Below are positions 5,991 through 23,262 of a DNA stretch of 50,089 nucleotides, in pieces. The first letter of the stretch is position 1, and each line of letters starts with the position of its first letter. The DNA is from Gammaproteobacteria bacterium. GTDB lineage: Bacteria > Pseudomonadota > Gammaproteobacteria > Steroidobacterales > Steroidobacteraceae. The notes under the pieces were generated by a model, which had not been told where the DNA came from, searched no databases, and was given only the letters and a program-made list of their open reading frames with translations. Both the position numbers and the translations under genes were made by a program. The DNA is taken from NCBI GenBank assembly GCA_003132425.1, contig PKXS01000096.1:14042-64130 (forward strand), read 5' to 3'.

Positions 5991-8462
5991 TTACCGCTGC
6001 ACCGCCGCCTCCACACCCAGTTCATGCGGCGCGAAATCATCGACATTGACAAGCGCGAGCACCTTGGCATCGTAATCGCGCAACGCGGCAGCTTCGCCGT
6101 CGCTGAGAATGCCGAATTGCAGGGCCTGCGTGATCTGCCCCGGAAGATCCAGCGCCGTCACCCGGCCGGTCTTTACGCCGTCGACGCGGATGCGCTTCTC
6201 GAGCGCTTCGGCGGCGCCCGACAACACCAGGGCTTCTTGCAATAGACCGAGCGGATTGCGCGGTTCCACGGTTTTATAGATGTACGCGCTTAGGCGCTCT
6301 CTTGCGTCGGTCGGGTTCATGATCAGATCGACGATCTGGCGGTCCAAGCGGTCGCTGGGCGCGAAATAGGTGAGTCCGCGCGGAAAGATGACCAAGCGCA
6401 TGAACGCCGCCAACGGACGATTCGGAAAATTACGCAGAAATAAATGCAGTTGTTCCTGCGCTTGATAGAGCAGGCTGCGGCACGCCCATTCGACGAGCGG
6501 CAGATCCGTAAGCAGGCGTCCCTGGTTGTCGTGATGTTTCAGCACCATCGAAGCCAAGTACATTGATGAGAGCACATCGCCCAAGCGTGCCGATAAGCTC
6601 TCTTTTTTCTTCAGATAGCCGCCGAGCGCCAGCATGGCGACATCGGCCGCCAGGGCGAATGAAGCGCTGTAGCGGTTGATGTGCTGAAAATAGCGCTTCG
6701 TCGCTCCGGTCCGCGGCGACTTGGTGAAACGCGCGAACGTCAATGCCATGACGATCGAACGCGCGGCATTCGAGATGGCGAATCCCACGTGACCCATGAG
6801 CGCTTGGTCGAATTCGCGAACACCTTGATCGTGATTCGGATTGCGCGCCGCATTCATTTCCTTCAATACCCACGGGTGGCAGCGCACTGCGCCTTGGCCA
6901 AATATGATCAGACTGCGCGTCAGGATATTCGCGCCCTCGACCGTGATCGCAACCGGCACGACTTGGTAGCCGCGCCCCAGGTAATTATTGGGCCCCAGGC
7001 AAATGCCCTTGCCGCCGTGCACATCCATTGCGTCATTCGCGATCATGCGTCCGAGCTCGGTGGCGTGATACTTGAGCATGGCCGAAGGCACCGAGGGCTT
7101 CTCGCCGCCGTCAATGGCGCCGGCCGTAACGGAGCGCGCGGCATCGATGATGTAGGTGCGCGCCGCCATGCGCGCCAATACCTGTTCTATACCTTCGAAT
7201 CGACCAATCGGCGCGTTGAACTGGCGGCGTATTTGCGCGTAGGCGCCCGAGGCGTACACCGCCGCTTTCGCGCCTCCGGCCGTATTCGAAGGCAGCGAGA
7301 TGCAGCGGCCCACCGATAACTGTTCGACCAACATTCGCCATCCTTGGCCGGCCATCGCGAAACCGCCGATAATGGCGTCCATCGGAACGAACACATCGCG
7401 TCCCTGTATGGGCCCGTTCTGAAACGGGATGTTCAACGGGAAGTGGCGACGGCCGATGGCGACGCCCGGCGTATCGCGCGGAACCAGGGCGCAGGTGATC
7501 CCAAGGTCGGTCCGCTCCCCCATGAGTTTATCCGGATCGAATAGGCGAAAAGCCAGTCCGATCACCGTGGCGATCGGCGCGAGCGTGATGTATCGCTTCG
7601 AGAAGTTGAGCTTGATGCCGAGGACCTCCGATCCCTGCCACAGACCTTTGCAAATAACGCCGGTATCGGGAATCGAGGCCGCGTCGGAGCCGGCGCGCGG
7701 GCCGGTGAGGGCAAAACAAGGGACTTCATCGCCGCGCGCCAGCCGCGGCAAGTAGTGATTCTTTTGCGCCTCGGTGCCGTAATGCAAAAGAAGCTCGGCC
7801 GGCCCCAGGGAATTCGGCACGGCAATCGTCGAGGAGGCCGTGGCCGAGCGCGAGGCGATCTTTATCAGCACGCAGGAATGCGCGTATGCGGAAAATTCCA
7901 GTCCGCCGTACAACTTCGGAATGATCATGGCAAAGAAGCCTTGGGACTTGATGAAGTCCCACACCTGCGGGGGCATGTCGCCGCGTCGATGCGTGATATC
8001 CCAATCGTCGAGCATCGCGCACAGCTGCTCGCAAGGGCCGTCGAGAAACGCCCGCTCGGCGAGCGTGAGCGTCGGGGCCTTGGCCGACATCAATTTTTGC
8101 CAGTTCGGGCCGCCGGTGAACAACTCGCCGTCCCACCACACAGTGCCGGCATCCAAGGCTTCGCGCTCCGTCGCCGACATCGACGGCAGCAATCGGCGGT
8201 AATTCTTGAGAAACGGCCGGCTGATCAGGACGACGCGCCAAGGCCGGACATTGAGCAGGAGCAGGAGCGCGAGCGGAACGGACACGGTTATTTTCCACCA
8301 GTCCGCCGCAGCGCCGAAGACCCAGTAAGCCAGCAGAACGACGCCCAGCACGGCGGTCGCGGCCGCGAGGCTCGCCCGCCGGTAGGCGAGAATGAGAATG
8401 ACACCCACGAATAACAGACACCAAACGAGAGCCGCGGCGGCGCCCGGCAACCAATTGTTCAT
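5991..8462 (-). CDS. fadE: Acyl-CoA dehydrogenase FadE type
   Basis: At 823 residues this matches the long FadE-type acyl-CoA dehydrogenases (E. coli FadE is 814). These oxidise acyl-CoA to trans-2-enoyl-CoA in the first step of beta-oxidation, using FAD. The N-terminus has two or three hydrophobic helices in the first 80 residues, which would hold it at the inner membrane. The acyl-CoA dehydrogenase core follows (FFAMIIPKLYGGLEFSAYA, then CFALTGPRAGSDAASIPD, then the DAMDVHGGKGICLGPNNYL segment). The long C-terminal extension DUF1974 is present. It lies 16 bases downstream of malate dehydrogenase on the same strand, so cotranscription is likely. Confidence 0.93.
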   Translation of the reverse strand: MNNWLPGAAAALVWCLLFVGVILILAYRRASLAAATAVLGVVLLAYWVFGAAADWWKITVSVPLALLLLLNVRPWRVVLISRPFLKNYRRLLPSMSATEREALDAGTVWWDGELFTGGPNWQKLMSAKAPTLTLAERAFLDGPCEQLCAMLDDWDITHRRGDMPPQVWDFIKSQGFFAMIIPKLYGGLEFSAYAHSCVLIKIASRSATASSTIAVPNSLGPAELLLHYGTEAQKNHYLPRLARGDEVPCFALTGPRAGSDAASIPDTGVICKGLWQGSEVLGIKLNFSKRYITLAPIATVIGLAFRLFDPDKLMGERTDLGITCALVPRDTPGVAIGRRHFPLNIPFQNGPIQGRDVFVPMDAIIGGFAMAGQGWRMLVEQLSVGRCISLPSNTAGGAKAAVYASGAYAQIRRQFNAPIGRFEGIEQVLARMAARTYIIDAARSVTAGAIDGGEKPSVPSAMLKYHATELGRMIANDAMDVHGGKGICLGPNNYLGRGYQVVPVAITVEGANILTRSLIIFGQGAVRCHPWVLKEMNAARNPNHDQGVREFDQALMGHVGFAISNAARSIVMALTFARFTKSPRTGATKRYFQHINRYSASFALAADVAMLALGGYLKKKESLSARLGDVLSSMYLASMVLKHHDNQGRLLTDLPLVEWACRSLLYQAQEQLHLFLRNFPNRPLAAFMRLVIFPRGLTYFAPSDRLDRQIVDLIMNPTDARERLSAYIYKTVEPRNPLGLLQEALVLSGAAEALEKRIRVDGVKTGRVTALDLPGQITQALQFGILSDGEAAALRDYDAKVLALVNVDDFAPHELGVEAAVQR

Positions 8463-8478
8463 GGATCTTTCCGCTTTG

Positions 8479-9456
8479 TTAGATCAAGTCTTTGACACCA
8501 TCGCGCTCTTCCAACAGCTCGCGGTGCGTCGCCGCCATTTTTTCGCGGCTGAACTCATTGACGCTCAATCCTTGAACGATGCTGTACTCACCGCCCTTGC
8601 AGGTCACCGGATAGGAATAGATCACACCCGAAGGGATTCCGTAGCTGCCGTCGGAGGGAACCGCCATGCTGACCCAGTCGCCGGGCGGGGTGCCGAGCAT
8701 CCAGTCGTGAACATGGTCCAACGCCGCCGCGGCCGCCGAAGCCGCCGAGGAGGTGCCGCGAGCTTTGATGATGGCGGCGCCGCGTTGCTGTACCGTCGGA
8801 ATAAAAGTGTCCTTGAACCATCCCTGGTCGACCAGCGACAGCGCGGGCTTAAGTTGGACGGTCGCATGATGCAGATCCGGATATTGCGTCGCCGAATGAT
8901 TGCCCCAGATGATGATTCTTTTCACGTCCGCGAGGGCGGCCCCCGTCTTTTCGCACAGCTGCGCCCGGCCCCGATTGTGATCCAGCCGAGTCATTGCCGT
9001 GAAACGGCCGGGCGCCAGCGACGGCGCATTGCGCTGTGCGATCAGAGAATTGGTGTTGGCCGGATTGCCGACCACCAGGACCCGCACGTCGCGGCTGGCG
9101 GCGGCGTCCAGAGCCTTGCCTTGCGCCGAAAAAATCTTGGCGTTCTCCAGCAACAGATCCTTGCGCTCCATGCCCGGGCCGCGGGGCCTCGCGCCGACCA
9201 GCATCGCAAAATGACAGTCCTCGAAAGCGATGTTGGCATCATGCGTTGCGGCGACCTTATTGAGCGTCGGAAAAGCGCAGTCGTTCAGTTCCATCACGAC
9301 CCCTTGAACCGCGGCGTCGGCCGCAGGTATTTCCAAGAGATTCAGGTTGATCGGCTGATCGGCGCCGAGCATCTGACCCGATGCGACGCGAAACGCGAGC
9401 GCATAACCGATATTTCCGGCGGCGCCTGTGATAGTGACGGTGACTGGCTTCTTCAT
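8479..9456 (-). CDS. mdh: Malate dehydrogenase
   Basis: The start at 9456 gives 325 residues beginning [18 protein letters not shown], with the nucleotide-binding loop GAAGNIG at 11-17. A longer open frame upstream adds 43 residues without family character and overlaps the preceding gene. The catalytic Asp/Arg pair lies in TRLDHNRG, the substrate-binding arginines in [14 protein letters not shown], and the catalytic His in [13 protein letters not shown]. It converts malate to oxaloacetate with NAD+ in the TCA cycle. This is the cytosolic-type family with GxxGxxG variant GAAGNIG, not the LDH-like type. It follows the anti-sigma candidate by 28 bases and precedes fadE by 16. Confidence 0.94.
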
Positions 9457-9484
9457 AACGAGCTCCCGGCGAAACAGCTTTGAC

Positions 9485-9973
9485 TTAGTCGGCGGCGCCG
9501 ATGTCGTAATGCGGATAGATGCGACGAAACCGGCGCAATTCCGCGTCCGCTTCGGCAACGCGGCCGCCGCGTCGCAGGGCGGCAATGTCGGCCAACCACG
9601 CTGCGGGTTCTCGCGAGCGCAGGGGACTTAAGTGGCTCGGAGGATCGCTGCTGTAGAGCTGGAATTCCTGGCTGAGCGGAGCGCTCTGCGGCAGCGCCGC
9701 GTGCGCGGCGGTACGCAGCACATGCGGCTTGTCGTCAGCGCGCTGAACCGTTTGCGGCCCGAATATGATGGCGAGCACCAGCGCGACCGACAGCAGCACG
9801 CTGGCGGCCAGCGCCAAGGGTGCGAGACACGGCGTCTTACCCTGCATCTCACGCGCCCGGCGGAGCACTTGCCGGTCAAGCGTGCGCGGCGGCGAAGGAG
9901 CCGGCTCGCGCCTATATTGCCGCGAAAGTTCACTGTCGCCGCGCAGGTACTCGTCCAGTTCGTCGGGTCTCAT
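9485..9973 (-). CDS. Single-pass membrane protein, candidate anti-sigma factor
   Basis: This 162-residue protein has a soluble N-terminal half, one membrane helix at about 50-72 ([22 protein letters not shown]) and a periplasmic C-terminal part. The end ([28 protein letters not shown]) resembles a helix-hairpin repeat. Its start codon overlaps the stop of the sigma-factor gene by 4 bases, and that position plus the topology suggest it is the cognate anti-sigma factor. It lacks the zinc-binding HxxxCxxC motif of the ZAS type. No family was recognised, so the role rests on context. Confidence 0.6.
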
Positions 9974-13197: not shown

Positions 13198-13250
13198 CGG
13201 GACGATGGCATAATGGCGCTGAGCCGACCCCGTTATGTAAGGAGCGCTGG

Positions 13251-13733
13251 ATGTACAAGACCAAGATAGATCTTTCGGAGAAAGTCCGCCGAAATGTCAA
13301 CGCCATTCTCAATGATCGCCTGGCCGATGCCATAGATTTGCAGAGCCAAGTCAAACAAGCACACTGGAACGTCAAGGGGCCTCACTTCATCGCCCTACAC
13401 GAGCTGTTCGATAAGATTTCAGATCTCGTGCTCGGACAAATCGACGACATCGCCGAGCGAGTGACGAGCTTGGGCGGCACCGCCGAGGGCACGGTGGCCG
13501 TGGCTGCTAAGCGCAGCAAATTGAAGAACTACCCTCTGAGCATTACCGCCGGGAAGGATCATTTATATTATTTGTCGACGCAATTATCGGTATTCGGCAA
13601 AGCCGTGCGCTCGACGATAGAAGACACCGCTAAACTGGGTGATGCGGATACTGCGGATTTGTTCACCGCGATTTCCCGCGACGTCGACAAATACCTCTGG
13701 TTCCTCGAGGCGCATTTACAAGATAAGGCCTGA
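13251..13733 (+). CDS. dps: Dps family DNA-binding ferritin-like protein
   Basis: The ATG at 13251 follows AAGGAG by 6 bases and gives 160 residues. The ferroxidase motif HWNVKGPHFIALHELFD at about 38-54, with more acidic ligands in the following helix (DDIAERVTSLGG), marks the dodecameric Dps fold. Dps stores iron, uses hydrogen peroxide to oxidise Fe(II), and shields DNA in stationary phase or oxidative stress. A positively charged N-terminus (MYKTKIDLSEKVRR) is the usual DNA-contact tail. It follows the exporter by 53 bases and could be cotranscribed or have its own promoter. No OxyR box was identified by eye. Confidence 0.92.
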   Translation: MYKTKIDLSEKVRRNVNAILNDRLADAIDLQSQVKQAHWNVKGPHFIALHELFDKISDLVLGQIDDIAERVTSLGGTAEGTVAVAAKRSKLKNYPLSITAGKDHLYYLSTQLSVFGKAVRSTIEDTAKLGDADTADLFTAISRDVDKYLWFLEAHLQDKA

Positions 13734-13763: not shown

Positions 13764-15125
13764 TTAACCTAGAAGATGGGAAAAATAACTGTTGTGGAGC
13801 CGATTCATCGGGTCGGTCCGTTGCCGCAGCGCGCGAAACAGTTTAGCGCGGTCGCCAAAGGCCTTCGCGACGTGCTCGGGCTGCAAGGCGCGTGTTTGAT
13901 TGAAGGTGGGGGTTCCGCCGAGCCCGGACGCAAAATCGTTGAAATCGATTAGGAAATCGTCCCAGCCCTTATCTCCGGTCGAGGAGGGCTCCAAGGTAAA
14001 CATGGGGCCCGAGTAACTCACGCTGAATAGAGATCCTCTGTCCTGGTGCAGACGGCTGGCGCCGTTCACCACGTTGCAACGATAGCGATGTTCCTTGAAA
14101 TAGGCCTTGCAGAAAGCGAAATATTCGCCGAGCAGCCTTGGAAAGTCGGCCTGAGGGAATGCCCATAGACTGTAGGTGTAGCGCGACTTCCACGCTTCCT
14201 GGGGCAAGTCGCGCATCAACTCGTGCGCATATAGGACCACGCCGCGCGCGGCGCGATCCAGTGTCGCGCGCAAAGCGCGCTGCACGCCTGAAACCACCGC
14301 GGTACGCAAGCCGGGCGCGGACAGCACGCTGCCGACGGTGGAGCCGAAGGCGGGCAACACATTGCGCATCACGGAATTGCGGATTTGCCACATTCCGGAG
14401 CGGCTGGCGCCCATCGCTTCATCGAGGGTGCGCCGCTCCACCGTGACGCGATCGTTGAAGGGGGAGATATGCAATCTCAAGGCACCCGGGGCCTCGATGA
14501 TGGCCGCGAAGCGGGCCGCGAATTCCTTGAGCGATAGATCCTGGTATTCCATTTTTACGGGCGTCAGGGGCCGCACGCGGAGCACGATTTCGTGCACCAA
14601 GCCCAATAGGCCGAAACTCGATTTTAGTACGCGCATCAAGTCACGGTTGCGCTCCGTCACGGTCATCTGCTTGCCTTGCGGCGTGATCAGCTTCAGTTCC
14701 GTCACGCAAGAGGACATCTGCGCGACGCCCACCGTATGCGATGCCTGCGGAAGTGTGGCGACGGCCAGGGCGCCCAGCGAAATTTGGCCGATTTCGGGCG
14801 TCAGCGGCAGCTCGAGGCCGCGTTCGGTCAGCGCCCGCACCAAAGTGCCGACACGCACTCCGGCTTGCGCGCGAACCGTGTTTTCGCCGAACTCCAGAAT
14901 TTTGTCGAGCGTGCCCATGTCGATCGTGGTTCCGCCGTCGCCGCCCACGCAGCGTGTCTGCGAATAATCCGCGCCGACGGCGCGAACCGGCGTCGGGTAG
15001 GTCTTGGGCTTGCCCAGGATGGCCGGTATGTCTTCGACATTCTTTGGCTGCAGCACGATCCGCGGCCGTCGATATAGACCCGAGGCGTCCGCGCCGGGCG
15101 TACGAGGAGTGACTTTGAGAACCAT
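13764..15125 (-). CDS. FAD-linked oxidoreductase (BBE/ALO-like), cyclic-di-GMP riboswitch target
   Basis: From the ATG at 15125 this is 453 residues. The N-terminal half is an FAD-binding type 4 domain (VRAVGADYSQTRCVGGDGG, then a GLELPLTPEIGQISLGALA stretch that holds the ADP-binding loop). The C-terminal half looks like the ALO/sugar-lactone oxidase-type substrate domain, ending with MNRLHNSYFSHLLG. I cannot name the substrate; aldonolactone-type and sterol-type oxidases are both possible. A longer frame to 15221 adds residues that do not align with the family, and the ATG at 15125 has a GGGGGAAG ribosome-binding site. A clear cyclic-di-GMP-I riboswitch lies in its leader, so its expression should follow cyclic-di-GMP. 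It is a single gene on its transcript. Confidence 0.85.
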   Translation of the reverse strand: MVLKVTPRTPGADASGLYRRPRIVLQPKNVEDIPAILGKPKTYPTPVRAVGADYSQTRCVGGDGGTTIDMGTLDKILEFGENTVRAQAGVRVGTLVRALTERGLELPLTPEIGQISLGALAVATLPQASHTVGVAQMSSCVTELKLITPQGKQMTVTERNRDLMRVLKSSFGLLGLVHEIVLRVRPLTPVKMEYQDLSLKEFAARFAAIIEAPGALRLHISPFNDRVTVERRTLDEAMGASRSGMWQIRNSVMRNVLPAFGSTVGSVLSAPGLRTAVVSGVQRALRATLDRAARGVVLYAHELMRDLPQEAWKSRYTYSLWAFPQADFPRLLGEYFAFCKAYFKEHRYRCNVVNGASRLHQDRGSLFSVSYSGPMFTLEPSSTGDKGWDDFLIDFNDFASGLGGTPTFNQTRALQPEHVAKAFGDRAKLFRALRQRTDPMNRLHNSYFSHLLG

Positions 15126-15128
15126 ATG

Positions 15129-15142
15129 CTTCCCCCCGGAAG
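15129..15142 (-). promoter_or_regulatory. Hairpin that covers the ribosome-binding site (likely riboswitch output)
   Basis: On the minus strand CTTCC-GGGG-GGAAG forms a 5-bp stem whose 3' arm is part of the Shine-Dalgarno sequence of the FAD oxidoreductase, ending 3 bases before the ATG. It would block initiation when formed. It follows the riboswitch by about 80 bases and may be the output element, so translation control is more likely than termination. A second palindrome (TTGCGC-GTAT-GCGCAA, 15197-15212) lies between the two. Confidence 0.5.
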
Positions 15143-15221
15143 ACTTGAACACAAGCTCAGATGCCTGCTGTCGGGGGTACAAAACCTTGAGGTTCGTTGC
15201 GCATACGCGCAAGAGGTGCAC

Positions 15222-15315
15222 TGGCGACCCCGCTATCGTCAGGCTTCCAAAAGAAGCCCCTTAGACCGGTGGTTTTGCGTCCCCACCTTTCGGCGGGTTT
15301 GCCCTTAAACAGCCC
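15222..15315 (-). promoter_or_regulatory. Cyclic-di-GMP-I (GEMM-I) riboswitch
   Basis: Read on the minus strand, the leader contains, in order, GGGCAAACC (15304-15296), a GAAA tetraloop stem (CGCCGAAAGGTGG), GGGACGCAAA (15283-15274), ACCACCGGTCTAA (ending at 15261), a hairpin GGCTTC-TTTT-GGAAGCC (15258-15242) and TAGCGGGG (15235-15228). These are the conserved blocks of the Vc2-type cyclic-di-GMP aptamer, in the same order and spacing, including the GAAA tetraloop and its receptor-side segment. A promoter ends just upstream. It would control the FAD oxidoreductase at 15125-13764. Confidence 0.92.
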
Positions 15316-15319
15316 CCCT

Positions 15320-15348
15320 ACTATGCGAGAAAGCGGCCGCGCTGTAAA
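15320..15348 (-). promoter_or_regulatory. Sigma-70 promoter for the riboswitch transcript
   Basis: On the minus strand TTTACA (15348-15343) and CATAGT (15325-15320) stand 17 bases apart, with 5 of 6 and 4 of 6 matches to the sigma-70 consensus. The predicted start site near 15313 places the first transcribed bases at the 5' edge of the aptamer, leaving a leader of about 190 bases. It sits between the end of the Kef-type gene and the riboswitch. Confidence 0.6.
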
Positions 15349-15357
15349 GGGGTGTTT

Positions 15358-17346
15358 TTAGCCCATCAGGAGCAGGGTTTCAGCGTGTTCCACGGCCTCC
15401 GGGGTCCCGCACACGACCACCACGTCGCCCTCTTTGAAGACTGTATCCGGGCTGGGCTCGCGGCCCACGATGCCGTCGCGGCGCACCGCGCTGACGGCGG
15501 CCACCGACCCACGGCCTAAAAGCTCGGCGATGCTTCTGCCGACGGCCCAGGCGTGCGGCGGCAGTATGACGCTGTGCAATTCCTCGCGAAATGCGTGGGT
15601 TTCATCCAAATGTTCGGCGCCTGCGGCTCTGAAGTACTGCCGCAGCATGCTGTAGCGGCCGCTGCGGATGTCGTTGACCGTTCGAATGACGCGAGACACG
15701 GGCAATTTCAGCAACAGCAATAGGTGAGACAGCAGCATCAAGCTGGCTTCGAAGGTTTCCGGCACCACTTCGGTGGCTCCCGCCGCCTGCAATTGCTCGA
15801 GCTTGGTGTCGTCCTGCGTCCGCACCAATATGGGCACGTCGGCGCGCAATTCGCGCACCGCGCGCAATATTCTCAACGCCACCTCAGGGCCGGCGAAGGT
15901 GATCACCACGCAGCTCGCGTGCGCGACTCCCACGTTTTGCAATACCTCGACCTGCCCCGCGTCACCGTATATGACGGGATCGCCCGCCTGCCGGCCGAGG
16001 CGAATACGGTACGGATCGAGATCAAGCGCAATGAATTCGAAGCCCGTTTGCTCGAGCACGCGCGCGATGTTCTGCCCCACCCGGCCGAAACCGCAAATCA
16101 CCACGTGATCGCGCTCCGCAACCGCGAGAGTCGCGCGACTCTCGCGCATCGCCTCGGTGTGCGGCGGACCGGATTCGCTCAACAGGGCGCGCGTAATGCG
16201 GCGATTATGCCGTATCAGAAAGGGCGAGAGCACCATGCTCAGCACGGTGGCCGCGAGCAGCGGCTGCACCACCGCCGGATCGAGCAATTCGCGTCTCAGC
16301 AAAAGGGTCAATAGCGCAAACCCGAATTCCCCGCCTTGCGCCACCACCACGCCGGTGCGCAATGATTTAAACCAGCTCTTGGTTGCCGGTTCCGCGACCA
16401 GGGTGACGATCGCCGCTTTCAGCACCAGCATTCCCGCGAGTATGGCGGTGACCAACGGCAAGTGCCGCAGCAGCAACTGAACGTCGAGCAGCATGCCGAC
16501 CGTTATGAAAAACAGGCCGAGCAAAACTTCGCGATAGGAACGAATCGTCGCCTCGACTTGGTGACGAAATTCGGTTTCCGCCAGCATCATTCCCGCTAAA
16601 AATGCGCCGAGCGCCAGCGATAGGCCGACGGCATGGGTCGCCCACGAGGAGGCCAGGACCGCCAGCAAAACCGCCAGGGAAAACAATTCCGCGGAGCGCA
16701 CCGAGGCAATGACGACGAACAATGGCCGCAACAGCCAGCGCCCGGCGGCCAATACCAAGAGCAATGCCAGAGCGGCTGCGCCGATGGCGCCGATGATATG
16801 CCTTGCATCGGCGCCGCGGCCACCGGAGCTCAATACCGATACCAGAGCGAGCAGCAGCGGAAAGCTCAGATCCTGAAACAGACAAATCGCCACCGCGAGG
16901 CGGCCATGCGTCCGATTGTTCTCCGACTGTTCCGTGAGCTGCGAAATGATGATGGCCGTGGAGGACATTGCGACGGCGCCGCCGACCACCACGGCCACCG
17001 CGGGAGCGACATCGAATAGCACGATGGCCGCCGCGGCCACAAAGCCCGTCGTTATCAGGACCTGCGCGCCGCCGACGCCGAGAACCTCCCAACGCATGGC
17101 CACCAAGCGCGGCAGGGAAAACTCCAGCCCCAGAGTGAATACCAGGAATACCACGCCGAAATCCGCCAGCAGCCGAGTCGTATCGTTATCCACGGCCAGA
17201 GCGAGCGCGTGCGGGCCGAGCAGCATGCCCACGGCGAGATATCCAAGAATCGCCGGCAGTGCAAGCTTGCGCACTCCCGCGACCACGCACACGGAAGCTG
17301 TCAGCAGGATCAATATCTGCAGCAGAGGATCGTTGTGCATACCCAT
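15358..17346 (-). CDS. Monovalent cation/proton antiporter of the KefB/YbaL type
   Basis: This protein of about 662 residues has a CPA2-type membrane domain of about 12 helices (residues 1-390, with LGYLAVGMLLGPHAL and FLVFTLGLEFSLPRL near the start). A TrkA-N domain follows with the nucleotide loop VICGFGRVGQNIA, then a TrkA-C domain at about 580-660 (LHSVILPPHAWAVGRSIAELL). Such proteins exchange K+ or Na+ for H+ and are gated by NAD(H) or glutathione adducts on TrkA-N. Starts at 17358, 17346 and 17340 are all possible. The gene start lies only about 20 bases from the divergent mlaE-like start. No KefF/KefG-type partner is next to it. Confidence 0.87.
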   Translation of the reverse strand: MGMHNDPLLQILILLTASVCVVAGVRKLALPAILGYLAVGMLLGPHALALAVDNDTTRLLADFGVVFLVFTLGLEFSLPRLVAMRWEVLGVGGAQVLITTGFVAAAAIVLFDVAPAVAVVVGGAVAMSSTAIIISQLTEQSENNRTHGRLAVAICLFQDLSFPLLLALVSVLSSGGRGADARHIIGAIGAAALALLLVLAAGRWLLRPLFVVIASVRSAELFSLAVLLAVLASSWATHAVGLSLALGAFLAGMMLAETEFRHQVEATIRSYREVLLGLFFITVGMLLDVQLLLRHLPLVTAILAGMLVLKAAIVTLVAEPATKSWFKSLRTGVVVAQGGEFGFALLTLLLRRELLDPAVVQPLLAATVLSMVLSPFLIRHNRRITRALLSESGPPHTEAMRESRATLAVAERDHVVICGFGRVGQNIARVLEQTGFEFIALDLDPYRIRLGRQAGDPVIYGDAGQVEVLQNVGVAHASCVVITFAGPEVALRILRAVRELRADVPILVRTQDDTKLEQLQAAGATEVVPETFEASLMLLSHLLLLLKLPVSRVIRTVNDIRSGRYSMLRQYFRAAGAEHLDETHAFREELHSVILPPHAWAVGRSIAELLGRGSVAAVSAVRRDGIVGREPSPDTVFKEGDVVVVCGTPEAVEHAETLLLMG

Positions 17347-17364
17347 GCCTGCTAGCATATAACC

Positions 17365-18486
17365 ATGAAGCTTTCGTTGGAGGGAGAAGGCGGCAATTGG
17401 CAGCTGCACTTGACCGGCGATTGGTCGTTGCCTGCGACGGCGCAGATCCAAGAACAGCTTAGGTCGCTGCCCGCGACGCTTAGCGGCACAGTGGTCTGCG
17501 ATTGGTCGCGCGCCGAGGCGCCGGGGATCGGTCCGGTCTGGGCATTATTGAGGCGATTGGCCGAATTCGCCGCCGGCCCCTTGGACGTGCGTCACGTCGG
17601 CAATCCGCCCCACACGTTGGAATTGCTGCGCAGACTGCAGGCCGACCGGCACGCCCTGTGTGGCCCGCCGCAGCCGGCGCCGCCGGATATAGAAGAGGTT
17701 GTCGGCAGGCTGGGACGTTGGGTCGTCCTGCAGGGCACCGAAGCGCGCGCCGTGGTCGGCTTCTTCGGACGCATCGTGACGGTTATCCGGGAGATATTCT
17801 CCCGGCCGCGCGCGCTGCGTGGATCGTCGCTGGCGCGGCATCTCTACGAGACCGGCGTGACCGCCATCCCCATCGTGTCGCTCATCGCCTTTTTGATCAG
17901 CGTGATCGTCGCTTATTTGGGGGCGCAGCAGCTTTCGCGTTTCGGCGCCGATATTTTTGTAGTCGATCTGGTCACCATATCCGTATTGCGGGAAATGGGG
18001 GTGTTGCTGACCGCCGTCATCGTCGCCGGCCGATCCGGGAGCGCGTTCGCGGCCGAGATCGGCGTGATGCAGCTCAACGAAGAAACGGACGCGCTGCGCG
18101 CCATGGGCATGAATCCGATCGAATTGCTGGTCCTGCCAAGAGTCCTCGCGCTCGTCATCGCGTTGCCGCTGTTGACCGTCATCGCCGATGCCATGGGGCT
18201 TGCCGGCGGCGGACTGTTGTCGCTGCTCAACCTTCACATCCCGTTGCCGCAATTCACCAGCCGCCTGCGCGAATCGCTCTCGGCCACGACCTTTTGGGCA
18301 GGCCTGATCAAAGCACCGGTGTTTGCGCTGCTGATCGGCATGGTGGGGACTTACCGCGGCATGCAGGTGCGCGAATCGGCGCGTGAACTCGGCCGTTTGA
18401 CCACCGTGGCGGTGGTGGAATCCATTTTCCTCGTCATTCTCGCGGACGCGCTGTTCGCGATCTTATTCGTGCAAATAGACTTCTGA
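17365..18486 (+). CDS. MlaE-family lipid ABC transporter permease with N-terminal STAS-like domain
   Basis: The 373-residue protein fuses two parts. Residues 1-95 have the STAS pattern (beta strands with LSGTVVCDWSRAEAPGIGPVW), which in the E. coli Mla system is the separate protein MlaB. Residues from about 140 form the permease domain with four to six helices, including the family motif around EIGVMQLNEETDALRAMGM. With the ATPase, MCE protein and lipoprotein encoded after it, it moves phospholipids between the inner and outer membrane. The ATG is immediately downstream of the divergent antiporter start, so its promoter must lie within the antiporter gene start or be very compact. Confidence 0.88.
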   Translation: MKLSLEGEGGNWQLHLTGDWSLPATAQIQEQLRSLPATLSGTVVCDWSRAEAPGIGPVWALLRRLAEFAAGPLDVRHVGNPPHTLELLRRLQADRHALCGPPQPAPPDIEEVVGRLGRWVVLQGTEARAVVGFFGRIVTVIREIFSRPRALRGSSLARHLYETGVTAIPIVSLIAFLISVIVAYLGAQQLSRFGADIFVVDLVTISVLREMGVLLTAVIVAGRSGSAFAAEIGVMQLNEETDALRAMGMNPIELLVLPRVLALVIALPLLTVIADAMGLAGGGLLSLLNLHIPLPQFTSRLRESLSATTFWAGLIKAPVFALLIGMVGTYRGMQVRESARELGRLTTVAVVESIFLVILADALFAILFVQIDF

Positions 18487-19268
18487 TGGCCGACTCGCCC
18501 GTCAGTCCGGTGATTCGCGTTCGAGGTCTGGTGAATCGCTTCGGCAAGCAAGTAGTTCATGACGGACTCGATTTGGAAGTGCAGCCGAACGAGATATTCG
18601 GCATTGTCGGCGGATCCGGAACCGGCAAATCGGTGTTGCTTCGCACGCTGTTGGGATTGAAGCACCCGGACGCCGGCACGGTCGAGCTATACGGCAGGGA
18701 TATCCGGCATCTATCGCGAGCCGAACGTGTCTCCCTGGTGCGCAGCTACGGCGTGACGTTCCAGAACGGCGCCTTGATCAGTTCATTGAACGTCGCGCAG
18801 AACATCCAGCTGCCGCTGCGCGAGCATTTCTATTCCATGACGGAGGAGACTCTTGCATCGCTTGCCGAATTGGGGTTGTCGATGGTAGGGCTGCCCGCGG
18901 ACACCGCCGCGAAATTCCCGGCGCAGTTATCCGGCGGCATGGTCAAGCGCGCCGCTTTGGCTCGCGCACTGAGTCTGGAGCCGAAGCTGCTGTTTCTCGA
19001 CGAACCGACTTCGGGGCTCGATCCGATTTCCGCCGCAGCCTTCGATGAGCTACTGTTGTATCTTCATTCGCAGCTGCGGTTGACGGTAGTCATGATCACC
19101 CACGACCTGGATACCCTGTTTCGCACGTGCAGCCGCGTCGGCGTAATCGTCGGCGGGCGCATGACCACCGACTCGCTCGAGAGCCTGTTGCAGAATCGGC
19201 AACCGTGGATACACGAGTATTTTCACGGACCAAGGGCGCGCGCCGCGTACAAGGATGAACGTGGATAG
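18486..19268 (+). CDS. MlaF-type ABC transporter ATP-binding protein
   Basis: The 260-residue protein has Walker A GGSGTGKSVLLRTLLGL, signature LSGGMVKRAALARAL, Walker B LLFLDEPTSGLD and switch histidine MITHDLD. The motif LSGGMVKRAA is typical of MlaF. It overlaps the upstream permease by one base (TGATG) and the downstream MCE gene by 14 bases, so the four genes are translationally coupled. The C-terminal tail ending RARAAYKDERG is the usual length for MlaF. It supplies ATP energy to the lipid transporter. Confidence 0.92.
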   Translation: MADSPVSPVIRVRGLVNRFGKQVVHDGLDLEVQPNEIFGIVGGSGTGKSVLLRTLLGLKHPDAGTVELYGRDIRHLSRAERVSLVRSYGVTFQNGALISSLNVAQNIQLPLREHFYSMTEETLASLAELGLSMVGLPADTAAKFPAQLSGGMVKRAALARALSLEPKLLFLDEPTSGLDPISAAAFDELLLYLHSQLRLTVVMITHDLDTLFRTCSRVGVIVGGRMTTDSLESLLQNRQPWIHEYFHGPRARAAYKDERG

Positions 19269-20196
19269 GGATCCGAATTACGTTGCCGTCGGCGCGTTCG
19301 TGCTGCTGGTCATCGCAATGGCCGTATCCTTTGTATATTGGTACACGAATCAGCAAGACAAGCGAACCTACCAGCGCTACGAAATCTACTTCACGGGCTC
19401 CGTCAGCGGGCTGAGCGCGGGTAGTCCGATCCGCTACCTGGGCGTCGATGTGGGGAAGGTCAGACGCATCATGCTCGATCCGGAACAACGTAAGCGAGTA
19501 CTTGTCATTGCCGATATCGAATCGTCGGCGCCGATCGACAGCGGCACCTTGGCCGCATTGAGCTTGCAAGGCATCACGGGCCTGCTGTTCATCGATCTAG
19601 AGGAGGATAAGCAGGCGGTGGCGGCGGGTACGCTCGCACAAGGACTGAATTATCCCGTCATTCGATCCGCACCCTCGGATTTCGACGTGTTGCTGAGCAG
19701 TCTACCGACATTGGCCGATCACATCATTGCAATGGTGGACCACTTCAATCAGATCTTCAGCGCCGAGAATATTCGTGCCTTTAATGTCACGCTCGACAAT
19801 GCGCGGCGGGCGAGCGAGCGCTTGCCCAACACGGTACGCGATGCGCAGGAATTGGTCGCCGAGATGCGCGCGGCTTCGCGCGAGGTGCAGGAAGCCGCCT
19901 CCGACATACATGGAATCGCCACGGACGCGGCACCCGCCGTCAAGCAGTCTCTCGCCAATGTTCAGCATGTCACGGAAAGACTTTCCAGCACCGCGGACCG
20001 CTTGGATCGCTTTCTAGCCGACAATGAGGCCGGTATTTCGCACTTCACGAATCAGGGCCTACCGGAATTCGAACGGCTGCTGCACGAGAGTCGTGATGCT
20101 GCCCGGGATTTCCGCGACCTGTCCCGCTCGCTGAAACAAAACCCCTCGCAGCTGATTTATGAGTCCACCTATCGCGGTATCGAGGTGCCCAGATGA
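19255..20196 (+). CDS. MlaD-type MCE domain protein
   Basis: The 313-residue protein has a single N-terminal membrane helix at about 9-28 (YVAVGAFVLLVIAMAVSFVYW), then one MCE domain at about 35-120 (YFTGSVSGLSAGSPIRYLGVDVGKV, then DLEEDKQ). The rest is helical with a long coiled-coil-like stretch (about 155-290). MCE proteins form a hexameric ring on the periplasmic side that threads lipids. The longer helical tail and single MCE domain place it closer to the MlaD/Mce-type of non-E. coli systems. It overlaps both neighbours. Confidence 0.88.
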   Translation: MNVDRDPNYVAVGAFVLLVIAMAVSFVYWYTNQQDKRTYQRYEIYFTGSVSGLSAGSPIRYLGVDVGKVRRIMLDPEQRKRVLVIADIESSAPIDSGTLAALSLQGITGLLFIDLEEDKQAVAAGTLAQGLNYPVIRSAPSDFDVLLSSLPTLADHIIAMVDHFNQIFSAENIRAFNVTLDNARRASERLPNTVRDAQELVAEMRAASREVQEAASDIHGIATDAAPAVKQSLANVQHVTERLSSTADRLDRFLADNEAGISHFTNQGLPEFERLLHESRDAARDFRDLSRSLKQNPSQLIYESTYRGIEVPR

Positions 20197-20810
20197 GCCG
20201 CCTGCTGGCATTGACCTGCACGCTCGCCTTGGCAGCCTGCACCGGCACCTTGTTCAAGGACCGGGCGGTGCCGCCGTCCGTCTATCTGCTCTCGGCGACT
20301 GCGGGGACGCCGGGTCCGAGCATACCGGCCGATCTCGCGGTTCTGAAGCCCCGCGTGCGCGTGGGTCTCGATACGGACCGCGTTGCGGCGTTATATCCGG
20401 ATCGGCGTTTGGATTATTTCGCCGGCGCGCGCTGGAGCGGACCGCTCGACGAAGTCGTTCATGACCTGGCGGTGCAGATGTTTCGCACTCACGCAAATTT
20501 TCGCAACGTCAGCGCCGACCGGTCGGTCTTTGCGAATGGATATTGGTTGGAAATCGACGTGCTGGATTTTCAGGCCGAATACTTGTCCGCCGACACCGCG
20601 CCAACCGTCCACGTGCATCTCTCCGGTCGAATCGGCACTTCCGCCAGTCGCCGCGCGCTAAGCCAGTTCGAGGCCAGTTCACGCCAAGCTGCCGCGGACA
20701 ATCGCTTGACCGCGATTATCGCAGCGTATGAACAAGCAGCGGATGCAGCTCTTGCCGACATCGTTTCCGATGCAACCGCGGCGCTCGACAAGGGATTGGA
20801 ACGCCAATAG
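20193..20810 (+). CDS. ABC-type transport auxiliary lipoprotein, PqiC-like
   Basis: This 205-residue protein starts MSRLLALTCTLALAAC; Cys16 lies in the lipobox LAAC, so it is a lipoprotein. The mature domain (YLLSATAGTPG, then LKPRVRVGLDTDRVAAL, then VVHDLAVQMFRTHANF) matches the PqiC/YmbA-type auxiliary domain that sits in the periplasm and can link an MCE ring to the outer membrane. It overlaps the MCE gene by 4 bases (ATGA). In E. coli this type belongs to the pqi system and not to mla, so here the operon combines both schemes. MlaC and MlaA are not in the window. Confidence 0.83.
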   Translation: MSRLLALTCTLALAACTGTLFKDRAVPPSVYLLSATAGTPGPSIPADLAVLKPRVRVGLDTDRVAALYPDRRLDYFAGARWSGPLDEVVHDLAVQMFRTHANFRNVSADRSVFANGYWLEIDVLDFQAEYLSADTAPTVHVHLSGRIGTSASRRALSQFEASSRQAAADNRLTAIIAAYEQAADAALADIVSDATAALDKGLERQ

Positions 20811-20814
20811 ATCG

Positions 20815-23262
20815 TCAGCCTGTCGCGGTCGGCCGTAGCGACACGGGGCCGCACAAGGCGGCATGGTATGCAGGCCCGCCAACCTGGCTGGAGAGAATCG
20901 CGAGGATTTTCCTTGCCTCCATGGCATCGCCGAACAGTCGTCCTTGCGCAAAATAGCAACCGTGTTTGCGCAAAAACTCGAGCTGTTCGCTCACCTCCAC
21001 TCCCTCCGCAATGACCTCGAGATCGAGGCTCTTGCCCATGTCGATAATGGTGCGAACGATGGCTGCATCGTTCGAATCCACCGCCACGTCGCGAACGAAG
21101 GACTGATCGATTTTCAGCGTGCCTATCGGAAACTGCTGCAGGGCGGACAGGGAGGAGTATCCCGTGCCGAAGTCATCGATGGCCAGGTGCAATCCCATGG
21201 CGTACAGCTCGTTCAGAAGGCCAATGGTCCGTTTTGGATCGGTCATCAACGTGGTTTCCGTGACCTCCAGTTCGAAACACGTCGGCGAAACCGCGTGCTT
21301 GCGGAATACCCCCCGGCATCGCGCGATGAAGCTTGCCTGCTTCAACTGCCGCAGCGAGAGATTAATGGCGATACGGCCCGGTTCCGGCACCGTTTTCTGC
21401 CACTCGCGATAGTCGGAGCAGACACGGTTCAATACCCATTCGCCGATGTCCAAAATGAGGCTGGTCTCCTCGGCCAGGGGAATAAAGTGCGAAGGCGAAA
21501 TATCGCCATGGCCCGGCAAGCGCCAGCGCAATAAGGCTTCCGCGCCCACCACTCGGCCGTCGCGCAGGTCCACCTTGGATTGATACAGAATCACCAATTC
21601 GTCGCGCTCCAGCGCGCGCCGTAACTTGCTCTTCAGCATCAAGCGCTCGACCGCCGCGGCATTCATTTCGGGAACGTAGAACGCGCTGGAATTGCCGCCG
21701 TTCTGCTTGGAGTGATACATCGCCGCGTCGGCATTGCGGATTAGATCGATCACGTTCTCGGCGTCGTAGGGGCAGATCGCAACGCCGACGCTGGCGGTCA
21801 AATAAACCTCTTGCTGGTTGACGTAGAAGGTTCGGCTGATCTCATCGAGCAGGGTACGGGCCAGGGCGCCCAAGCTGGCGCGGTTGTCGATATCGACCGG
21901 CAAGTCGTCGATAAATATGGCGAATTCATCGCCCGCCAGCCGGCCGATGACCGTGTCCTTGCTCAAGTTTCGGGTAAGCCGCTCGCTCAAAATCTCCAGC
22001 GTGCGATCGCCCGCGGAGTGACCGAAGGTATCGTTGACCTCTTTGAATCGATCCAAATCCAGATACAGCAGCGCCAGACCGCGCTGATTGCGCCGCGATC
22101 GCGCGATCGCCTGCTGCAGCAAATGCTGGAATTGCATTCGATTCGGCATTTTGGTCAACGTGTCGTAGCGCGCCAAGTAGCGGATGCGCCGCTCGGCGCG
22201 CTTGCGCTCGGTTATATTGCGCGCGACGTAGATGTTGCCCTGGAATTGCGGGTCGTCGGTGGTAATCGTCGAGCTCGCCATGGAAACCGGAATGGTCTGC
22301 CCGCTGGCCGTGCGCAGCACCGTTTCGCGCGCTTCCGGCGCGGCACTCGATAAATCGAATGCGCTGCGATGCGCATCGTCGATGAAACTCACCAACGGCT
22401 TGGTCAGCAAATCCACCTCGCCGTAGCCCAACAGCCGCTGTGCGGCCTCGTTGCAACTTTTCACGATGCCATCGGGCGAGGTCACCAGCACCGCATCGCT
22501 CAGGCTGTTGAGCACCGTATTGAGGTAGTTCTTGGTGATCGTGGTTTCCGCCAATTTTTGGCGCATGCGCTCGAGCGCTCGTTGCAACTCGCCCAGCTCG
22601 TCATGGCGCACCACGGCGAGGGGGCGCGTGTAGTCGCCTTGGCCGATTCGCTCCGCGCTCTTGATCAGCGCAGAGATGGGACGCGCCAGTTGGCGGGCGA
22701 CGAACCATGCGCCGAGCAAGCCCAGAGCGAGCAACGGCAGGGTGATTGCCGCAAGCAATCCGCGTTTCCGTTTGACCTGAGTTCCCTGCTTGCTCTCCAG
22801 TTGCGTGCGTATGCTGCCGAGGGTTTCGTGCATTTTGGCGCGGCTTAGTGCGATCCGCAGGCTCCCGGACCGCATGTTGCTTTGCAAGACATAGGGTCCC
22901 AGAGTCGAATGCTGCACGACGGGGTTGCTGCCGCTGAACAATACGACGCCGTTCGCATCCAACACTTCGACGTGCTCGATATCCCGCTCGTCGAGCAGCC
23001 GGTCCGCGATCGACGATACCGCCGCGATGTTGCCCGAGGCGAGCGCGGGGGCAAGCAGCGAGCCGGCGATTTTACTCATGCTGCTTGCGCGCGATTCTAA
23101 GTCCGTCTCCAGCTTCTGCTCGACGGTTGCGTAGGTGAGCTGGTTCACGTCCGCCGTGTCGACGCGGTGTTCGTAGAACTCCAGGCCGCCCAACAGCAGC
23201 AACAACCCGGCGCCGACCCCAAGGGCGACCAGCAAGTACTTGGTTTTCAGGCTTCGCGCCAT
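20815..23262 (-). CDS. Membrane GGDEF-EAL protein (cyclic-di-GMP turnover)
   Basis: The 815-residue protein has helices at about 8-27 and 166-187 around a periplasmic sensor region, then HAMP (187-240), PAS (245-355), GGDEF (365-530) and EAL (540-790). The EAL site is intact: EALLRW, the Asn in AINLSL, the Glu in VTETTLM, DDFGTGYSSL, the Lys in LKIDQSF and IAEGVE, so phosphodiesterase activity is likely. The GGDEF motif reads AGDEF, a variant often still active, and the RxxD inhibitory site is not present at its usual position. It ends 5 bases from the convergent lipoprotein gene. It lies about 5.5 kb from the cyclic-di-GMP riboswitch, the first obvious enzyme of that signal in the window. 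Confidence 0.92.
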   Translation of the reverse strand: MARSLKTKYLLVALGVGAGLLLLLGGLEFYEHRVDTADVNQLTYATVEQKLETDLESRASSMSKIAGSLLAPALASGNIAAVSSIADRLLDERDIEHVEVLDANGVVLFSGSNPVVQHSTLGPYVLQSNMRSGSLRIALSRAKMHETLGSIRTQLESKQGTQVKRKRGLLAAITLPLLALGLLGAWFVARQLARPISALIKSAERIGQGDYTRPLAVVRHDELGELQRALERMRQKLAETTITKNYLNTVLNSLSDAVLVTSPDGIVKSCNEAAQRLLGYGEVDLLTKPLVSFIDDAHRSAFDLSSAAPEARETVLRTASGQTIPVSMASSTITTDDPQFQGNIYVARNITERKRAERRIRYLARYDTLTKMPNRMQFQHLLQQAIARSRRNQRGLALLYLDLDRFKEVNDTFGHSAGDRTLEILSERLTRNLSKDTVIGRLAGDEFAIFIDDLPVDIDNRASLGALARTLLDEISRTFYVNQQEVYLTASVGVAICPYDAENVIDLIRNADAAMYHSKQNGGNSSAFYVPEMNAAAVERLMLKSKLRRALERDELVILYQSKVDLRDGRVVGAEALLRWRLPGHGDISPSHFIPLAEETSLILDIGEWVLNRVCSDYREWQKTVPEPGRIAINLSLRQLKQASFIARCRGVFRKHAVSPTCFELEVTETTLMTDPKRTIGLLNELYAMGLHLAIDDFGTGYSSLSALQQFPIGTLKIDQSFVRDVAVDSNDAAIVRTIIDMGKSLDLEVIAEGVEVSEQLEFLRKHGCYFAQGRLFGDAMEARKILAILSSQVGGPAYHAALCGPVSLRPTATG

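Follow-up and report, generated by a model that had tools for sequence, protein, structure and literature searches.

The targets of c-di-GMP-I (GEMM-I) riboswitches are mostly motility, pili and matrix genes. The 3',3'-cGAMP riboswitch (GEMM-Ib) is presumably marked by an A at position 20. In PMC9262584, G20 is given as the selectivity position of the riboswitch class, and closely similar aptamers are described in ON and in OFF versions. The locus analyzed here lies in a stretch of DNA of 50,089 nucleotides, referred to as the window. Comparison of its sequence with known RNA families and with orthologous loci makes it very probable that an RNA of the c-di-GMP-I class acts as a riboswitch on the gene of an FAD enzyme. 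The fuller reading, a canonical c-di-GMP-I riboswitch on a lone FAD-enzyme gene with c-di-GMP turning translation OFF, is the probable one. The features concerned are the following.

13248-13733, plus strand: ferritin-fold gene, next downstream of the FAD gene and convergent with it.
13764-15125, minus strand: FAD-dependent oxidoreductase, 453 aa (PF01565), with a predicted fold of the L-galactono-1,4-lactone dehydrogenase (GALDH)/alditol-oxidase/DprE1 type.
15132-15137, minus strand: Shine-Dalgarno sequence (SD) GGGGGG within CTTCCGGGGGGAAG, from the sequence and the orthologue alignment.
15167-15177, minus strand: putative switch element CCCCCGACAGC, with two predicted pairing partners, the SD and, in the aptamer 5' strand, CTGT and GGG.
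15219-15312, minus strand: c-di-GMP-I aptamer, from Rfam covariance models and the orthologue alignment.
15310-15312, minus strand: 5' strand CTG of aptamer helix P1, its putative partner being CAG at 15221-15223 (pairing read from the sequence).
15320-15325, minus strand: -10 hexamer CATAGT, at a 17-nt spacer, from a promoter scan and the orthologue alignment.
15343-15348, minus strand: -35 hexamer TTTACA, from the same two sources.

A whole-genome search by name with RF01051 (c-di-GMP-I) gave 72.1 bits at the aptamer site (G000:C125:29261-29354), well over the threshold of 35; the covariance-model check proposed in the initial annotation thus came out in its favor. When the 50-kb window was scanned against all Rfam families using cmscan, the aptamer site (15219-15312, minus strand) was the only gathering-level match. 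The label printed for it was that of RF03167 (c-di-GMP-I-GGC), with 63 bits over a cut-off of 59 (E = 1.3e-12), and cmscan on 371 bases reproduced this result; cmscan reports one model per clan, and one overlapping same-clan match was dropped at this site. The class motifs were found on the minus strand in the order claimed earlier, namely GGGCAAACC at 15296-15304, a GAAA-capped stem, GGGACGCAAAA, ACCACCGGTCTAA, a T-rich capped hairpin and TAGCGGGG. The placement of a riboswitch locus at 15222-15348 on the minus strand was correct as to its presence and inexact as to its ends, the aptamer match being 15219-15312.

Positions 15303, 15276 and 15224, which we take to be G20, A47 and C92 in Vc2 numbering, carry the canonical ligand-contact residues of c-di-GMP-I, and each of the three was invariant in 107/107 aptamer rows (four duplicates among them). 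In the cmscan alignment, position 47 is A in the window and G in the RF03167 consensus. Because these residues are canonical, the RNA was assigned to c-di-GMP-I rather than to the GGC variant, with c-di-GMP as its presumed ligand. The class assignment of the initial annotation is upheld by the RF01051 score and the three residues, and is qualified by the printed Rfam label, which is that of the GGC variant. A 3',3'-cGAMP riboswitch (GEMM-Ib) was rejected, position 20 being G, not A, in the window and in all 107 rows.

Covariation was counted in alignments fitted to the model and hence biased towards it, with a slide control included: two-sided changes filled 118 cells in 77 aptamers, compared with 48.0 (sd 5.7) in shuffles, none of 500 of which reached this number, and sliding the pairing partners by 1-3 columns collapsed the signal. 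Similarly, 27 distinct rows of a second alignment gave 59 such changes against 18.6 in shuffles (0/500 reaching it). For instance, 10 of the 77 aptamers and 8 of the 27 rows have U-A in place of the C22-G45 pair. Judged by these counts, the aptamer structure is under selection.

A variant aptamer that occurs in multiple copies and measures about 105-114 nt was noticed in family f2 (genus g26; genomes G704, G720 and G709), and 12 examples were examined (L215-L226). By eye, G20, A47 and C92 are kept, the P2 loop is CAAA, AAAA or GAAA, and GGGUCCUCGCUUCC...GAAGGACCC-like arms replace the usual UCUAA side, so that the variant appears to be a form of c-di-GMP-I that lacks the tetraloop-receptor contact. 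Upstream, 11 of the 12 carry ATTGAC (GAATTGAC in nine), and the open reading frames (ORFs), which begin 3-60 nt downstream, differ in kind.

TTTACA-N17-CATAGT was the sole sigma-70-like site in 15100-15420 (one found, 0.1 expected in shuffles), and CTTTACA-N16-18-GCATAGT occurred once in the window and in none of 100 shuffles. Among 18 unique close orthologues, window counted, the -35 hexamer was conserved as CTTTACA in 17 (CTTTGACA in L006) and the -10 hexamer as CATAGT in 16 (CATATT in L012 and L014). The own promoter proposed in the initial annotation is thus present as a site and conserved in orthologues. It would drive a transcript beginning near 15313, next to the aptamer end at 15312, in agreement with the earlier placement of the start at the aptamer edge. 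The most likely start of the FAD gene is the ATG at 15125, preceded by the SD, and not the GTG of the longer ORF at 15221, which lies inside the aptamer match; the leader then measures approximately 188 nt. Transcription termination was set aside as the control level on the weak evidence that 15100-15420 held no terminator-like site, where merely 0.4 were expected by chance.

The window genome, a draft assembly of 4.1 Mb in 146 contigs with a completeness of 96.57 and a contamination of 5.74, has three RF01051 matches: one of 82.2 bits preceding pilM, that of 72.1 bits preceding the FAD gene and one of 39.3 bits preceding a pectate-lyase-like gene. The pilM and pectate-lyase-like genes are ordinary kinds of target, which sets the FAD enzyme apart from the other two. 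That it is the sole target, as stated earlier, fits the window, the downstream ferritin-fold neighbor being convergent. A comparison of the window with ten larger regions around the FAD gene showed no conserved operon; in L203, L204 and L213, three f2 genomes, same-strand genes follow the FAD gene, with HlyD-/AcrB-type exporters in L203. In this comparison, which is rough because the FAD gene of L205 and that of L207 escaped the simple greedy ORF caller, the commonest family was that of the FAD gene itself (nine regions plus the two overlooked), followed by generic ABC ATPases (four regions) and exporter genes (three, within f2). Upstream of the riboswitch, the window holds a KefB/C-like antiporter gene (15358-17451, minus strand) and beyond it a Mla/Mce-type lipid transport operon (17365-20810, plus strand). 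A HAMP-PAS-GGDEF-EAL protein, possibly a c-di-GMP enzyme of the same region, is encoded 5.5 kb from the riboswitch (20815-23262, minus strand).

The enzyme matched FAD_binding_4 (PF01565) with 63.7 against a gathering cut-off of 26.4. Its matches to the TIGR01679, TIGR01678, DprE1 and GALDH models were weak, partial and far under the curated cut-offs, with 87.3 against 292.25 for TIGR01679 (bacterial FAD-linked oxidoreductase), 37.7 against 458.25 for TIGR01676 (GALDH) and 46.4 against 500 for NF053785 (DprE1). By profile, GALDH was the top match of the FAD half in the PDB (E = 1e-25). An AlphaFold2 model made from 19 sequences (pLDDT 74.8, pTM 0.76; residues 238-292 poor) resembled an ancestral L-galactono-1,4-lactone dehydrogenase (Z 39.2), alditol oxidase (Z 38.6) and DprE1 (Z 36.2) at 16-20% identity. 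A galactonolactone-dehydrogenase/alditol-oxidase fold is predicted from these results. The residue aligned with Ala113 of GALDH, presumably the gatekeeper, is Pro in the window enzyme and variable across homologues; H2O2 production as a family trait was dropped, since this residue is not constant. At the position where, as we assume, oxidases of this fold bear the flavin-linking His, the window enzyme has Y and only 6 of 115 homologues have His, so covalent flavin attachment through that residue is no family trait. A homologue without the aptamer was seen outside the order (L209, genome G470, 6672-9844, plus strand). Its ORF shares one base with the end of a gene for an animal-type haem peroxidase (PF03098), with which it likely forms a two-gene operon; chemistry involving peroxide or radicals may be hinted at by this pairing.

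A close homologue of the enzyme (63-100% identity) was present in 15 of 150 genomes of the window's family, its own included, and any match in 60 of the 150. A class-wide search at E 1e-30 recovered the subfamily from 4 of 369 genomes, among them that of the window, and the order-wide search from 125 of 396 genomes and 24 of 72 genera. The locus set consisted of 115 unique loci, that is, 111 of the 125 order genomes, three named records (L064-L066) and L091 from outside the order, following removal of duplicates (L069, L071, L084-L087, L089 and L093). The remaining 14 of the 125 genomes were left out (fragmentary genes, plus G663); in seven of these (G663, G708, G713, G717, G730, G747 and G749) an RF01051 match lies directly upstream on the right strand, and in G668 about 410 nt from the gene fragment. 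Aptamers were called with our own model, trained on 15 aptamers including that of the window, and for some loci with Rfam. The ends given by our model and by RF01051 agreed within 1 nt in the five loci compared (L120, L122, L124, L138 and L180), and Rfam matches were obtained at 14 and a further four close orthologue loci (L069, among the four, being a duplicate of L101).

The aptamer lay directly upstream on the same strand in 103 of the 115 loci. Ten lacked it (L107, L109-L112, L115, L148, L189, L200 and L091), and L011 and L118 had too little upstream DNA to be judged (L118: 189 nt before the contig end), which leaves a base of 113. RF01051 was matched in all 110 other enzyme-bearing genomes searched, at 1 to 21 matches per genome, from which a chance match within 300 nt upstream was estimated at well under 1 in 100. 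The 21 matches were those of G315, a 4.7-Mb genome of the same order, where they make up a large predicted class I regulon; G565 and G523 gave 17 and 15. At L107, an orthologue with 75% identity that duplicates L071, TTTGACA/CATAGT stands at the expected place and the aptamer is absent; judged by its sequence, this locus is a natural control. On a FastTree tree of the loci, arbitrarily rooted at its midpoint and containing duplicates and long branches, at least six changes of aptamer state were counted, L118 being scored as lacking. The history of the aptamer may be a single ancestral gain with losses, or multiple gains. The suggestion in the initial annotation that the locus may point to a new c-di-GMP output gained weight from the link being kept in 103 of 113 judgeable loci, and the FAD enzyme looks like a regular c-di-GMP output across much of one order, not a one-genome accident.

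In the mechanism proposed, the element at 15167-15177 would, at low c-di-GMP, pair back onto the aptamer 5' strand (CTGT and the G20-bearing GGG), leaving the SD free and allowing the enzyme to be made. At high c-di-GMP, folding of the aptamer would free the element to pair with the GGGGGG SD, which would be sequestered, and translation would stop. With an element that has these two alternative partners, the aptamer 5' strand and the ribosome site, rising c-di-GMP would switch off production of the enzyme; we infer translation as the control level and OFF as the direction, the latter with reasonable confidence. In most close orthologues the element reads CCCCC-xx-ACAGC and lies 33-50 nt upstream of the start codon, and its two partners, the G-rich SD or CTGT with the G20-containing GGG, are mutually exclusive. 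In 18 close orthologues, element:SD pairing scored -16.40 for own and -15.65 for swapped partners (127 of 2000 permutations as good), while element:aptamer pairing gave no own-versus-swapped signal (1467 of 2000). Both partners are re-matched in L007 (5'-CGCUGUUC with GAACGGCG, and CCUUGGAAC with GUUCCAGGG). In L006 the SD pairing is re-matched and the element:aptamer pairing nearly absent, and for L015-L018 swapped SDs pair better than the own one.

Leaders were also folded with pairings forced. With CTGT:ACAG forced, 13 of the 18 leaders had an SD exposure of one half or more; in three of the other five (L008, L013 and L065) exposure was lower than unconstrained. With aptamer and P1 forced (P1 could be forced in 17 of the 18, L006 having none), SD exposure fell by more than 0.05 in eight, was unchanged in ten and rose by more than 0.05 in none. 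For the window, forcing the aptamer took SD exposure from 0.16 to 0.02 with P1 forced and from 0.07 to 0.12 without. Over all 103 leaders, with the aptamer forced without P1, exposure went down by more than 0.05 in 27, up in 11 and was unchanged in 65, a weak outcome, the start codons being picked heuristically and some wrongly (e.g., L202, L190 and L125 in the start distances, L164 in the folding test). For the window's own relatives, support for the platform mechanism is suggestive.

In family f2, 32 leaders (type B) carry a GGUGUCUUUGGC-like element that matches aptamer CAAAGGCACACC and SD GCCGGAGAC. Element:SD pairing scored -13.53 for own and -12.60 for swapped partners, with 3 of 2000 permutations as good; for element:aptamer pairing 283 of 2000 were as good, with little own-versus-swapped signal. 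The base beside AAAGGCA that would face the element is C in 32/32 type B leaders and in 0/17 element-lacking relatives, which form two groups on the tree and represent two events, not 17. The type B SD is hidden already in the free ensemble (exposure 0.08, and 0.05 with the aptamer forced). Support for the predicted platform mechanism in type B, over its 32 loci, is fair. In eight of the 17 element-lacking relatives (type A1) the SD GGAG directly follows C92-C93, and forcing the aptamer raised SD exposure in five of the eight, including L164 with its wrongly picked start. Use of the SD as the 3' strand of P1 was considered for type A1 and rejected, the complementarity being inconsistent by eye. 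In the other nine (type A2), the aptamer is followed by the ATG at a distance of 0-1 nt, and GGAG within the GCGGAG of the aptamer is the likely SD, so that aptamer folding would hide it; GCGGAG is also present in leaders with a separate SD (e.g., L145, L153, L171, L197, L164 and L015-L017). The likely start codon lies 0-8 nt past the aptamer in 17 loci. The layouts of types B and A2 favor OFF and that of A1 does not.

Three other readings were weighed against an OFF switch on the FAD gene. The same aptamer and target might form an ON switch, the folded aptamer exposing the ribosome site. This is possible and rather doubtful: ON and OFF versions of near-alike aptamers do exist according to PMC9262584, and aptamer folding raised predicted SD exposure in the five type A1 leaders and in 11 of 103 overall, whereas an element that has the aptamer 5' strand as well as the SD for possible partners makes an order that gives OFF, and a likely SD within the aptamer in nine leaders also speaks against ON.

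Much less credit is given to the remaining two. Were the RNA a c-di-GMP-I-GGC variant (RF03167), its ligand might be other than c-di-GMP; the printed cmscan label, which passes its threshold and was also given to 10 of 14 close-orthologue aptamers (window's included), agrees with this, yet the bits are higher for RF01051, and A47 stands in 107/107 rows where the GGC consensus has G, so that the variant was rejected as very unlikely. The aptamer could also be a relic or serve another gene, the enzyme being regulated otherwise, as the ten loci without it and the promoter-like site kept at L107 might suggest. Against this stand its retention in 103 of 113 judgeable loci, the compensatory changes in its helices, the absence of any other gene family beside it in as many of the compared regions, and the 17 loci in which the start codon likely follows within 8 nt; it is the least probable reading of all. 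An OFF switch acting on the FAD gene is preferred.

The locus is a known riboswitch class, as assigned by sequence, with an unusual target conserved across an order; no report of this riboswitch target, order or enzyme was found in searches of an open-access library. We lean somewhat towards the wider view of an order-wide, unreported c-di-GMP output, in which translation of a distinct GALDH/alditol-oxidase-like subfamily would be shut off through a class I riboswitch by several separately evolved platforms, one of which (nine loci) would hold its SD inside the aptamer. If true, the decision between motile and sessile life would be tied directly to a sugar- or lactone-oxidizing step. The judgeable loci at which the switch accompanies this one metabolic flavoenzyme, 103 of 113, come from several families of a single order. 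This offers a concrete lead to the role of the enzyme, whose activity should suit either the motile or the sessile lifestyle, and likewise to a metabolic branch of c-di-GMP signaling. The series of leaders (element present, element lost, SD in aptamer, aptamer lost) suits the study of platform evolution around a fixed aptamer.

Compared with c-di-GMP-I riboswitches of the Vc2 type (RF01051), the window RNA shares the fold, the GAAA loop, G20/A47/C92 and the position at the mRNA 5' end, and differs in its target, a lone flavin enzyme, and in its putative translation platform with a C-tract/ACAGC element. Like c-di-GMP-I-GGC RNAs (RF03167) it passes the cut-off of that model; unlike them it has A, not G, at position 47, and it scores lower there than with RF01051. 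The enzyme resembles L-galactono-1,4-lactone dehydrogenase, alditol oxidase and DprE1, which are VAO-type flavoproteins, in predicted fold over most of its length (Z 32-39), and departs from them in sequence, with 16-20% identity and scores far under the TIGR01676, TIGR01679 and NF053785 cut-offs.
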